10,670 nt of DNA from contig QZKU01000100.1 of NCBI GenBank assembly GCA_003598085.1, forward strand, positions 1-10,670, given 5' to 3'. This document shows, piece after piece, positions 3,151 through 10,354 of this stretch; positions within the stretch are counted from its first letter, which is position 1, and each line of letters begins with the position of its first letter. The translations under genes and the position numbers were made by a program. The notes under the pieces are model-generated. The model made no database searches, was not told the DNA's origin, and saw only the letters and a program-made list of their open reading frames with translations. Source of the stretch: Candidatus Abyssobacteria bacterium SURF_5. Lineage in GTDB: Bacteria; Abyssobacteria; SURF-5.

Positions 3151-5606
<2,456 letters not shown>

Positions 5607-5625
5607 TTATCCTCCGATTTTAACC

Positions 5626-5670
5626 GGCTCCGGGGACAACGAATTTTCTTTGTCCCCGGTAGCCGCCTTT
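5626..5670 (+). terminator. Probable terminator hairpin after ahcY
   Basis: CCGGGGACAA (5630-5639) pairs perfectly with TTGTCCCCGG (5650-5659) around a 10-base AT-rich loop. GGCT (5626-5629) with AGCC (5661-5664) extends the stem past a one-base bulge. Only a short TTT (5668-5670) follows, so termination by this hairpin alone is less certain than at 3056. It lies 19 bases after the ahcY stop and before the next promoter, where a terminator is expected. Confidence 0.7.
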
Positions 5671-5722
5671 GGAAAATCCCACCGTAACCAATTTGACGTG
5701 CTGCTCTTAGGCCGAGCGTCGT

Positions 5723-5751
5723 TTGACAGCATATTTCAGGAGATGTATAAT
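5723..5751 (+). promoter_or_regulatory. Sigma70-type promoter for the 5799-6503 gene
   Basis: TTGACA (5723-5728) and TATAAT (5746-5751) are both exact consensus hexamers with the ideal 17-base spacer. Transcription would start near 5758, leaving a leader of about 40 bases before the ATG at 5799. This implies strong housekeeping expression, separate from metK-ahcY. Confidence 0.88.
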
Positions 5752-5798
5752 ATTTTCTACGGGAGATTGGACAGCTTCGGGAAACGGAAATATCCTCA

Positions 5799-6503
5799 AT
5801 GACGCTGCGCGACGGAGACGCCCTCAGAATCAGCTCAAACGGAATCCTCCTCTTTTTCCTTTTTCCACCCGATGCGTTTGCACAGGTGGACGGCGCTCAG
5901 AACGTTTCCATATCACTCCTGGTAATCGCATTCCTTTTCAGTGTGTGTATCCTGGTGATCTCGGGCTTCACTCTCTGGCAGTCGCATCGCTATTATCTGG
6001 ATACTGTGCGCCTGAGCCGTGAGATAACCAATACGACCACCGAGCTCCATCATAAGGTGGTCGAGCTTATCTACAGCTTGAAGGAATACTTTTCTCAAGA
6101 TGTCGACATGGGCGCCCAACGGGAGCGGCGCCAGCAGAAATCCCGCCGTACCCCCTCCCGGCAGGTGGACAAGATCGTCGAGGATATTGCGGACACCGAG
6201 AACAAGATTCGCGCGCTGGAGAAGACCCTCGGCAAGCTGAACGAACAGCTCTCCTTCAATTTCTCTTCCGGCAGCATCTCGCGCACATTGTCCGGCCTCA
6301 GCGATATTGAATATGCCGTCCTGCTCAAGCTCTCGCAGGATCCGAAGTTTTTCGAAAAGAACTCTTTTACCAGTTTCGGCGCTACTCCCAAAGTTCTCGA
6401 CTCCCTGCTCAGCCGTCAGTTAATCGTTTTTAATTCCGAGGGAAAAGCGGAGGTGCCGAGAGAGGTTGTATTGGCCCTCAAGTACTCCCTCCCGGGAAAT
6501 TAA
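5799..6503 (+). CDS. Membrane-anchored coiled-coil protein of unknown function
   Basis: I do not recognise this 234-residue protein. A hydrophobic stretch at 15-28 (GILLFFLFPPDAFA) ending in a signal-peptidase-like Ala-x-Ala-type site is followed by a clear transmembrane helix at about 38-60. After that come a polar helical region (72-100), a basic low-complexity linker (106-122, rich in Arg, Gln and Lys) and a heptad-patterned helix (123-152, VDKIVEDIADTENKIRALEKTLGKL). The last 70 residues (LSDIEYAVLLKLSQDPKFFEK..., LDSLLSRQLIVFN) look like a compact helical domain with a beta-wing, reminiscent of winged-helix folds; that is inference. A near-perfect promoter drives it, but the ribosome-binding site is poor (GGAAACGGA, 5780-5788), so the start is less certain than the frame. 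It appears to be a single-gene unit between the methyl-cycle genes and the ECF operon. Confidence 0.8.
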   Translation: MTLRDGDALRISSNGILLFFLFPPDAFAQVDGAQNVSISLLVIAFLFSVCILVISGFTLWQSHRYYLDTVRLSREITNTTTELHHKVVELIYSLKEYFSQDVDMGAQRERRQQKSRRTPSRQVDKIVEDIADTENKIRALEKTLGKLNEQLSFNFSSGSISRTLSGLSDIEYAVLLKLSQDPKFFEKNSFTSFGATPKVLDSLLSRQLIVFNSEGKAEVPREVVLALKYSLPGN

Positions 6504-6522
6504 CCGGCCACTACATCCTCAC

Positions 6523-6597
6523 GCCCTGAAGATGTGCCTGCCTTTCAGTCGACAGCGTCTTAAGTTGCTGATATTGATATACATATGTTTTCAGGGC
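6523..6597. repeat. Long-range inverted repeat in the gap before the ECF sigma gene
   Basis: GCCCTGAA (6523-6530) is the exact reverse complement of TTCAGGGC (6590-6597), with 59 bases between them. Weaker inner pairs such as ACATC (6513-6517) with GATGT (6531-6535) compete with it. The whole gap 6504-6769 holds no recognisable gene. The pairing could be a loose terminator for the upstream gene or leader structure for the sigma operon. Eight base pairs over this distance could arise by chance. Confidence 0.3.
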
Positions 6598-6769
6598 CTT
6601 GCGCTTGCACGCAAATGTTGAAACAATGGCTGAAACAGTGGGTGAGTTGGCTGACACTGCCGCTCCTTTGCTTGCGATGGCCGGCTTGAACAGTTCTGTC
6701 TTGAAACAAGCCTTGGGATTGAATAACGGTTCTTTCAAACCGTCTAATGAACAGGAGTTAAAGAACTTC

Positions 6770-7342
6770 ATGTCCTCCGATGAGGAACTGATCGCCGAAA
6801 CTCGCGGTGGAAACCGGGCGTCATTCCAGGAGTTGGTTGAGAAATATCAGCGGCGGATGTATTCGGTTGCTTACGGAATTCTGGGAAACAGGGAAGATGC
6901 CCTTGATGCGGTACAGGAGGCTTTCATCAAGGCGTATCGCTCGCTGCCGGAATTCAAGGGGCAATCAACCTTCTATACGTGGCTGTACCGGATCACAGTA
7001 AATGCTGCTATTGATCTGGCAAGGAAGGCGCAACGACATGAGGAAGTCGAGTTCCGTGAAGAGATCGAGGTGGTCGAGGAGAAAGGCGACTATCCTGTGG
7101 CGGCGCAGTCCGAGAACCCTTCCGAGCGCCTGATGCGGAAGGAACTCGGGGAATTGATCGAAAAAGCGATTGCATTATTGCCGGTCGAGCAGCGGACGGC
7201 TGTTGTGCTCAGGGAAATCGAGGGGTTGTCCTACAGGGAGATCGCCGGGATCATGAAATGTTCGGAAGGGACCGTGATGTCAAGACTGCACTACGGTCGA
7301 AAAAAGTTGCAGGAGTTGCTTGAACCTCACCTGGAGCGGTGA
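6770..7342 (+). CDS. ECF-family RNA polymerase sigma factor (RpoE-like)
   Basis: This 190-residue protein is a two-domain group 4 (ECF) sigma factor that redirects RNA polymerase to stress or envelope promoters. Region 2 spans about residues 10-95: SFQELVEKYQRRMYSVAYGILGN, DALDAVQEAFIKAYRSL and GQSTFYTWLYRITVNAAIDLARK. An acidic linker (EEIEVVEEKGDY) follows, then region 4 with LPVEQRTAVVLREIEGLSYREIAGIM, whose helix-turn-helix ends in CSEGTVMSRLHYGRKKLQ. Met 6770 is chosen because MSSDEELIAETRGGN is the normal beginning of this family and AGGAG (6753-6757) lies 12 bases upstream. The frame stays open another 57 codons upstream but that part has no family match or ribosome-binding site. The next gene is its zinc-finger anti-sigma factor, so release from that protein is the likely control. 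Confidence 0.93.
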   Translation: MSSDEELIAETRGGNRASFQELVEKYQRRMYSVAYGILGNREDALDAVQEAFIKAYRSLPEFKGQSTFYTWLYRITVNAAIDLARKAQRHEEVEFREEIEVVEEKGDYPVAAQSENPSERLMRKELGELIEKAIALLPVEQRTAVVLREIEGLSYREIAGIMKCSEGTVMSRLHYGRKKLQELLEPHLER

Positions 7343-7365
7343 TATCTTACTTATGGAGTTGTACA

Positions 7366-7875
7366 ATGAAAATGGCATGTGAAAAGGTCCGAGGATTGCT
7401 CGAAAGATTTCATGATAAGGAACTGGACGAGCGAGACTCCAAGAGTGTGGCGGAGCACCTGGAGGGCTGCGCCCTCTGTTCCAGGGACCTGGCAAAACTT
7501 GAACATGTCAGTGGAATCGTCAAGACCCATTATGATATGATTTCGGCGTCGCAAAATTTCACCGGCATGTGGGCGCGCATCAATTCAAGCCTGGACGCAG
7601 CGGCGCCCGCGCCGGCGCACCGGCGCGTACTCACTGAACTGTTGAGATTCCCCAAGCCCGTATGGGCGACGATTGGAGCGGTCGCGGCCGCCGTGTTGCT
7701 TCTGTTCGTCTATTTGCCGGGTACGCAGGAACCCGCAATTGCGGCAAACGATTGCATTATAGATACAGTCGAAGCCGAAGATAGCTCGGTCATGGTATTC
7801 GAGACGGATGACACCAAAATGAAGATCATCTGGGTGATGAACCAGGATGATCAAGAACAAGGAGTGACTTCATGA
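7366..7875 (+). CDS. Membrane-spanning anti-sigma factor with zinc-finger (HxxxCxxC) domain
   Basis: This 169-residue protein probably holds the upstream ECF sigma factor inactive at the inner membrane. The N-terminal cytoplasmic domain shows the zf-HC2/ZAS pattern: Cys5, then His31-x3-Cys35-x2-Cys38 in AEHLEGCALCSRDLAKL. A linker with AP repeats leads to one transmembrane helix at about 99-117 (VWATIGAVAAAVLLLFVYL). A short extracytoplasmic tail (AANDCIIDTVEAEDSSVMVF to the end) would be the sensing part. ATG 7366 is preferred because GGAG (7355-7358) lies 7 bases upstream; an in-frame GTG at 7339 overlapping the sigma stop is the alternative. The stop overlaps the next gene's start (ATGA), indicating translational coupling. 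Confidence 0.9.
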   Translation: MKMACEKVRGLLERFHDKELDERDSKSVAEHLEGCALCSRDLAKLEHVSGIVKTHYDMISASQNFTGMWARINSSLDAAAPAPAHRRVLTELLRFPKPVWATIGAVAAAVLLLFVYLPGTQEPAIAANDCIIDTVEAEDSSVMVFETDDTKMKIIWVMNQDDQEQGVTS

Positions 7876-8348
7876 ATAGAGTCCCCGCTCGACAAGTCAC
7901 CGTTTTCCTGCTGGTCTCGCTCCTCTTGTCCTTTTCTGCGGTTTCAGCTCCGGCTCAACAAGCCGGGCCAAAGGCCGATATCATCATATACGTGATCGAA
8001 GCTTCCAACGGGGGTGGAGGAGTCGATCCTCAGATTCAGCACCTGGTGAAGGAATTCAAGGGCGCTTTCCGTTATTCGAGCTATCAGCTTGTCAAGAGAA
8101 TCCCGAGACGACTCGAGGCCGGCGAAAAAGAGATAGTCCCTCTTCCGGGCGGGCGGCAGATGCAATTGCAGATGCAGGGTTATGAAGAGAACCGCATCAA
8201 ACTGAGGGTCAAGATTCTCGAGAAGAAGGAAAAAGGCTCGCGCGATATATTGAACACCGAGTTCAGGATCATCAAGGGCGGCACCATCATGATTGGCGGA
8301 TACGACTATCGGGACGGCAAGCTCGTCATGGCCATCTCGGCGAAATGA
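7872..8348 (+). CDS. Small exported protein of unknown function in the ECF sigma operon
   Basis: This 158-residue protein has a clean Sec signal peptide: basic MNRVPARQ, a hydrophobic core VTVFLLVSLLLSFSAV, and a likely cleavage after APA (residue 28). There is no lipobox cysteine and no second membrane segment. The mature part is predicted by eye to be beta-rich with alternating hydrophobic strands (ADIIIYVIEAS, RIKLRVKILEK, TIMIGGYDYRDGKLVMAIS), plus a Gly-rich turn and a basic mid-region. I do not recognise a named family. It overlaps the anti-sigma gene by four bases (ATGA), with GGAG (7861-7864) 7 bases upstream, so it is part of the same operon. A role as periplasmic partner of the anti-sigma factor, or as an effector made under the same control, is inference. 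Its stop is followed by no clear terminator. Confidence 0.87.
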   Translation: MNRVPARQVTVFLLVSLLLSFSAVSAPAQQAGPKADIIIYVIEASNGGGGVDPQIQHLVKEFKGAFRYSSYQLVKRIPRRLEAGEKEIVPLPGGRQMQLQMQGYEENRIKLRVKILEKKEKGSRDILNTEFRIIKGGTIMIGGYDYRDGKLVMAISAK

Positions 8349-8704: not shown

Positions 8705-10354
8705 ATGGCGCAAGGAGAAAACGGATACAAAAAGTGGCGGGCGGACTACGAGCGCTCGAAGAAGCGGAATTACATTTTCATGACCACCTCCAGCAGAGAA
8801 GTAAACCCGCTGTATACCCCGGCCGATCTTCCGGATTTCGAATATGAGCGGGACCTCGGATATCCCGGTGAATTCCCGTTCACGCGCGGGGTGCACCCGA
8901 CGATGTACCGCGGGCGGCTCTGGACCATGCGTCAGTTCGCGGGAATGGGGAGCGCACGCGACACCAACAAGCGCTATCACTTCCTGCTCGACCACGGCCA
9001 GATGGGGCTGTCGGTTGCATTCGATATGCCGACGCTTATGGGGTATGATTCCGATCACACCTTCTCGGAAGGCGAGGTCGGACGCTGCGGCGTCGCCATC
9101 GATTCGGTCGAGGACATGAGCGTGCTGTTCGACCGGATTCCGCTCGACCAGATTTCCACTTCGATGACGATCAACGGACCGGCCTCAGTGTTGTTCGCCT
9201 TCTATATCGTGGTGGGCGAGCGGCAAGGGGTAACATCCGAAAAACTGAGGGGAACCATCCAGAACGATATCCTGAAAGAGTACATCGCTCAGAAATCCTG
9301 GCTTGTGCCACCCCAGCCGTCGATGCGCATCATCACTGATATCATGTCGTTCGCTGCCGAGCATGTGCCGCAGTGGAATACCATCAGCATCAGCGGATAC
9401 CACATCCGCGAAGCGGGTTCCACAGCCCTGCAGGAACTGGCGTTCACGCTTGCTGACGGGTTCGCCTACGTCGAGGCCGGCATCGAAGTCGGACTTGACG
9501 TCGACAGCTTTGCGCCGCGGCTCTCGTTCTTTTTCAACGCGCACAACGACTTCTTCGAAGAGGTCGCGAAATATCGGGCGGCGCGGCGCATCTGGGCGCG
9601 CGAGATGAAGGAGAAATACAAGGCGAAAGACCCGCGCTCGTGGCTTCTGCGGTTCCATACCCAGACCGCAGGCTGCAGCCTGACGGCCCAGCAGCCGGAA
9701 AACAACATCGTGAGGACCGCATACCAGGCGCTTTCGGCCGTGATGGGCGGAACGCAGTCGCTGCACACGAACTCGATGGACGAAACGTATGCGCTTCCGA
9801 CTGAAAAAGCGGTCCGGATCGCGATGCGGACGCAACAGCTTATCGCGCATGAATCGGGCGCGGCCAATGTGATCGACCCGCTTGCAGGCTCATACTTCGT
9901 CGAGGCGCTGACAAATGAGATGGAACGCGGCGCCTACGAGTATTTCGAGAAAATCGAGAAATTCGGCGGAGTAGTCAAGGCGATCGAAGCCGGCTTTTTC
10001 CAGCAGGAAATCGCCGACGCCGCCAAGTGCTACCAGCGTGAGATCGAAGCGAAGGAGCGTATTATCGTTGGCGTGAATGACTACATACTCGAGAACGAGC
10101 AGACCGAAATCCCGCTCCTGAAAATCGACCCTGCTGTCGAACAGGAGCAACGCGAACGCGTGCGCGCTCTGCGCGAAAAACGAGATAACGACAAGGTCAG
10201 ACGCAGCCTCGAGGCGCTCGCCGAGGCCGCCCGCAGCACCGATAACGTGATGCCACGGATAATCGAATGCGCCCGCTCGCTCGCGACCAAAGGAGAAATC
10301 TGCGACGTTCTTCGCGACGTCTACGGCAGATGGGAAGAGCCGAAAATCTTCTGA
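8705..10354 (+). CDS. Acyl-CoA mutase large subunit, methylmalonyl-CoA mutase family with isobutyryl-CoA mutase-type active site
   Basis: This 549-residue protein is the substrate-binding barrel of a coenzyme-B12-dependent acyl-CoA mutase. Family signatures are [77 protein letters not shown] and [18 protein letters not shown]. Numbering is offset by exactly 11 from Propionibacterium MutB: Gln197 and His244 are conserved as Gln186 and His233. Tyr89 is Phe78 and Arg207 is Gln196, the pair that distinguishes isobutyryl-CoA mutase (IcmA) from methylmalonyl-CoA mutase, whose Arg binds the substrate carboxylate. The predicted reaction is therefore isobutyryl-CoA/butyryl-CoA interconversion or that of a similar uncharged acyl-CoA. 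The C-terminal cobalamin-binding domain (DxHxxG) is absent, as in split enzymes of about 550 residues, so a separate small subunit is needed and is not in the window. Automatic tools will probably label it methylmalonyl-CoA mutase. Confidence 0.93.

Follow-up and report, generated by a model that had tools for sequence, protein, structure and literature searches.

At the end of the window, the whole 10,670-nucleotide stretch of DNA analysed here, lies a gene that standard annotation would place in propionate and methylmalonyl-CoA metabolism, and its residues raise the question of which acyl-CoA the encoded mutase rearranges. An original prediction, made from the sequence, had read it as an isobutyryl-CoA mutase of the IcmA type and not as a methylmalonyl-CoA mutase (MCM). 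This reading is favoured over MCM by the alignment register, the residue pair, the tree and the gene neighbourhoods alike. We therefore consider it likely that the gene product belongs to a two-subunit isobutyryl-CoA mutase that depends on adenosylcobalamin, and is its large, substrate-binding subunit, with the substrate assigned by comparison.

The mutase gene and its annotation

The mutase open reading frame is exact and intact, starts with ATG and encodes 549 amino acids; its features are collected in Table 1. The Pfam search detected PF01642 only, without a C-terminal B12 domain. The sole NCBIfam match above cut-off was TIGR00641, which reads 'methylmalonyl-CoA mutase N-terminal domain', and PF01642 likewise labels the protein as MCM. 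It is thus mislabelled by both standard models, as had been expected of its annotation; for IcmF, too, a mislabelling of this sort is on record (PMC7764203). The fused IcmF architecture is absent, since the protein has 549 residues and scores 358 bits with NF045497 against a cut-off of 1500. Orthologues in two genomes of the same family (G001 and G002) are 84% identical.

Table 1. Coordinates of the mutase gene and of the codons discussed in the text.
Feature	Position	Strand	Basis
Shine-Dalgarno-like GAGGAA	8691..8696	+	8 nt upstream of the mutase ATG, read from the sequence
Acyl-CoA mutase large subunit, catalytic part, F/Q class, probably IcmA-type	8705..10354	+	PF01642 765 bits, TIGR00641 780 bits, nearest solved structure HcmA 4r3u, F/Q clade
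Codon of Phe78 (MutB Tyr89)	8936..8938	+	alignment to 1req_A and 5req_A, MAFFT
Codon of Ala105 (MutB-116 site; Asp in HcmA)	9017..9019	+	alignments
Codon of Leu111 (MutB His122), third class-separating position	9035..9037	+	homologue counts
Codon of conserved Gln186 (MutB Gln197)	9260..9262	+	alignments
Codon of Gln196 (MutB Arg207, carboxylate-binding in MCM)	9290..9292	+	phmmer alignment, MAFFT
Codon of conserved His233 (MutB His244)	9401..9403	+	alignments

The window is the entire contig C100 of a 5.1 Mb draft genome (98% complete). Its genes are, in order, nusG, rplK, rplA, metK, ahcY, a gene for a 234-aa protein, an ECF sigma factor, a zf-HC2 anti-sigma factor, a 158-aa protein and, last, the mutase. 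The identified neighbours, from nusG to the anti-sigma factor, are uninformative on the mutase substrate, and a Pfam search found neither an epimerase nor propionyl/methylmalonyl-CoA carboxylase genes in the window. The sigma factor, the anti-sigma factor and the small protein, which has no Pfam match, lie directly upstream of the mutase (6773-8348), and the order of these four genes is kept in G001 and G002. As a separate observation, the NusG encoded at 765-1847 carries an unusual acidic, Pro/Glu-rich N-terminal extension of about 185 aa, with the Pfam match at 187-290 and an uncertain start codon.

Specificity residues

Mutases were classed by the residue pair at the sites of Tyr89 and Arg207 of MutB, the P. 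shermanii enzyme (PDB 1req_A), which correspond to positions 78 and 196 of the window mutase; the classes are referred to as Y/R and F/Q. A phmmer search against PDB aligned the window mutase with 1req_A without gaps through both sites. The offset is 10 in the deposited chain; provided that one N-terminal residue is missing from that chain, this equals the predicted constant offset of 11 in the numbering used in publications. In this register the catalytic Gln197 and His244 are kept as Gln186 and His233, and the Tyr and Arg found at the carboxylate-contact sites of MCM are not present in the window mutase, which has Phe78 and Gln196 instead. These four correspondences, all put forward in the original prediction, were recovered in the alignments, those of the specificity pair by phmmer and MAFFT, and that of Phe78 also with a second PDB chain, 5req_A. 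This chain differs from 1req_A in having Phe and not Tyr in the column of position 78, which confirms the register independently.

The comparison with solved enzymes included IcmF (4xc6), HcmA (4r3u), MutB (1req) and human MUT (2xij). The pair is Tyr/Arg in human MUT, Ile/Gln in HcmA and Phe/Gln in IcmF. Position 105 is Ala in the window mutase, in IcmF and in MCM, and Asp in HcmA; Leu111 is found in both IcmF and HcmA. With the Arg replaced, the partner of the carboxylate is lost, and the Phe/Gln combination is that of IcmF, an enzyme of known activity.

The two sites change together. In the initial homologue set (n = 137) 100 proteins were F/Q and 37 Y/R, and among all 155 homologues with either pair the numbers were 104 and 51; mixed pairs (F/R or Y/Q) did not occur in either set. 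The third position behaves in the same way: the site of Leu111 is Leu or Ile in each of the 100 single-domain F/Q proteins, and Gln or His in 50 of the 51 Y/R proteins. All 80 named genome matches are F/Q, although this set was fetched with the query and is therefore biased to its class; they come from Nitrospirota, Actinomycetota, Bacillota, Chloroflexota, Neomarinimicrobia, Armatimonadota, Thermodesulfobacteriota and other phyla. Since the pair is also present in both same-family genomes, its occurrence in the window mutase is not due to chance. Two Streptomyces plasmid homologues that were read are both Y/R.

The two-site rule is already published: a passage of PMC7238569, citing Jost et al. 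2015, identifies a Rhodospirillum protein as MCM by its Tyr-92 and Arg-210. The assignment made here is an application of this known test, and the window mutase is very probably a further example of the known isobutyryl-CoA mutase family.

Phylogeny and gene neighbourhoods of the relatives

A tree of the mutases was built by a quick search without the specificity columns 78 and 196. The single-domain F/Q proteins formed one clade (33 rows, SH-aLRT 97) which includes the window mutase, while all Y/R mutases, among them MutB and human MUT, fell outside. IcmF was found on a separate long branch, and HcmA lay outside the F/Q clade with its placement unresolved. Within the clade, the window mutase groups with L096, L102, L095 and L051.

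Two of these relatives have an informative context. In L096 (Clostridiales PH28_bin88, 68% identity) the mutase is clustered with a crotonase, two acyl-CoA dehydrogenases, the adenosyltransferase CobA, a small subunit and a thiolase (acetyl-CoA acetyltransferase); in L102 (Syntrophomonadaceae, 65% identity) it lies with acyl-CoA dehydrogenases, CobA, MeaB and a small subunit. These neighbourhoods match the isobutyryl-CoA mutase cluster Slip_0757-0760 of the isobutyrate degrader Syntrophothermus lipocalidus, which comprises mutase N- and C-terminal domain proteins, an adenosyltransferase and a MeaB-like protein (PMC5017805).

Candidate partner subunit and other mutases of the genome

Neither a small subunit nor MeaB was found in the window, and both were located elsewhere in the genome. 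MeaB is present in a single clear copy on contig C13. Three stand-alone mutase-type small subunits are encoded, on contigs C53, C41 and C47. The orphan on C53 (136 aa, TIGR00640, L069:9783-10193) has orthologues in both same-family genomes (G001:C258 and G002:C7:35553), and in five other genomes its best match is encoded next to an F/Q mutase or a few kb away. In a small-subunit tree that has few columns and mixed F/Q and Y/R labels, it falls together with those of L096 and L102 and so mirrors the large-subunit tree. The C41 orphan groups with the small subunit adjoining another Y/R mutase (L190) and was for this reason set aside. The C53 protein is thus the best candidate and most likely the partner of the window mutase.

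The genome contains three mutases: the F/Q protein of the window, a Y/R protein on C139, adjoining a carboxyltransferase and a biotin carrier protein, and a divergent Y/R protein on C47, near which a small subunit is encoded. The C139 gene is probably the genome's MCM. A Y/R mutase also accompanies the single-domain F/Q mutase in all 19 genomes sampled, as expected if both do different jobs. The genome has 24 matches to acyl-CoA dehydrogenase, three strong matches to 3-hydroxyacyl-CoA dehydrogenase and 12 to thiolase; it thus holds the enzyme families for butyryl-CoA oxidation, which are common and say little alone.

In the stretches examined in three genomes of the window's family, no small subunit lies beside the F/Q mutase or the C139-type Y/R mutase. 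A C53-type small subunit may, on this ground, serve both large subunits in this family.

Divergent mutases in other genomes

The comparison also brought up mutases of neither class. In G033 (2.5 Mb draft, 89% complete) 19 acyl-CoA mutase matches were found in loci L216-L230, for example L220:807-2468 and 5178-6848, L216:1806-3458, L218:740-2413, L224:1686-3341, L225 and L226. About a dozen of them are neither Y/R nor F/Q and have pairs such as V/F, V/Y, I/F, I/G, L/N, L/L, L/C, L/Y and Q/P; many lack His244 (N, D, A or S at this site) and some lack Gln197. Identities among them are mostly 35-60%, and in at least two cases a dedicated small subunit is adjacent. B12 mutases seem to have radiated here onto unknown substrates. 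In one genome of the window's own family, a mutase (L189:3476-5311, minus strand; G002:C7:71496-73073) combines a Val/Cys pair with Asn in place of His244; its own small subunit lies nearby, and its nearest relatives are the G033 paralogues.

Proposed function and alternative readings

The radical mechanism is established for this enzyme family. The large subunit would have a B12-binding small subunit as its partner in trans, for which the C53 orphan is the most likely candidate, and would probably use the MeaB chaperone encoded on C13. The 5'-deoxyadenosyl radical would take a hydrogen from the acyl group and the thioester-CoA group would undergo a 1,2-shift, interconverting isobutyryl-CoA and n-butyryl-CoA. 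Phe78 and Gln196, standing in place of the Tyr/Arg pair that grips the free carboxylate of methylmalonyl-CoA, would allow an uncharged C4 acyl group to be bound. We infer that the enzyme likely feeds isobutyrate or valine-derived isobutyryl-CoA into the beta-oxidation of butyryl-CoA, or works in the reverse direction.

The residue pair had been taken as a signature of isobutyryl-CoA mutase. This claim is supported, with one qualification: F/Q rules out a carboxylate-binding Arg, but alone it does not prove isobutyryl-CoA over isovaleryl- or pivalyl-CoA, as IcmF is reported to act on both of these (PMC10481361). In L098 (1-11688), L099 (9929-20144) and L101 an F/Q mutase is clustered with a small subunit, MeaB, an acyl-CoA carboxylase beta subunit, a 412-aa protein, a second carboxyltransferase and an HMGL-like lyase; in the L099 cluster an acyl-CoA dehydrogenase was also identified. 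Such clusters are a possible setting for a leucine-linked isovaleryl/pivalyl-CoA mutase. With carboxyltransferases and an HMG-CoA-lyase-like gene next to these F/Q mutases, several substrates may be represented in the F/Q clade. We give a small chance, well short of an expectation, to a broader version in which several specificities (isobutyryl, isovaleryl/pivalyl and other branched acyl-CoAs) lie behind one pocket signature and the C53-type small subunit is shared by F/Q and Y/R large subunits.

For the window mutase itself, a role as isovaleryl-CoA/pivalyl-CoA mutase, or as a mutase of another branched, non-carboxylated acyl-CoA with an F/Q pocket, is unlikely. The substrate range of IcmF and the clusters reminiscent of leucine breakdown speak for it; however, those loci belong to a different F/Q branch (L099 in the tree), and L096 and L102, the nearest relatives with informative context, carry a butyrate beta-oxidation set.

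That the protein is an MCM which functions with a substituted carboxylate site is very improbable, despite the model names and an identity of about 49% to MutB: the equivalent of Arg207 is Gln in all F/Q relatives, these form a clade of their own, and the same genome has a genuine Y/R mutase by carboxylase genes. In addition, only 1 of 94 F/Q loci has a methylmalonyl-CoA epimerase gene within 5 kb, compared with 5 of 10 loci in the small Y/R sample. MCM identity was thus rejected on residues, tree and neighbourhoods. Least probable of all is a 2-hydroxyisobutyryl-CoA mutase of the HcmA type. It was considered since HcmA is the nearest PDB protein (50% identity, IcmF 37%) and, like the window mutase, has Gln where MutB has Arg207 and Leu at position 111. 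It was rejected on Phe78 and Ala105, where HcmA has Ile and Asp; HcmA also lies outside the F/Q clade.

For the isobutyryl-CoA mutase reading, the practical consequence is that the two-residue check, together with Leu/Ile versus Gln/His at MutB-122, splits 100 single-domain F/Q from 51 Y/R proteins cleanly. It can be applied mechanically, and could set right an annotation error that is common among uncultivated bacteria with a possible role in degrading or making isobutyrate.

Comparison with known enzymes

The window gene resembles the two-subunit isobutyryl-CoA mutases (IcmA/IcmB of Streptomyces cinnamonensis; Slip_0757-0760 of S. lipocalidus), which also have a large subunit of about 550 aa without a B12 domain; Streptomyces IcmA presumably carries the F/Q pair as well. 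Relatives of the window gene likewise cluster with a small subunit, MeaB and an adenosyltransferase, whereas its own small subunit candidate and MeaB are on other contigs. IcmF of Cupriavidus metallidurans has the same specificity pair, Ala105, Leu111 and catalytic Gln and His, but is a single fused chain made up of B12 domain, GTPase and mutase. HcmA is, like the window mutase, a large subunit only and shares a segment of 12 residues with it, but has Ile and Asp at the sites of Phe78 and Ala105. MutB and human MUT belong to the same family and have the same CoA-binding and catalytic residues (the equivalents of Gln197, His244, Arg87, Ser114, Thr195 and others); they differ from the window mutase in Tyr89 and Arg207, in His122 where the window mutase has Leu111, and in the C-terminal B12 domain.
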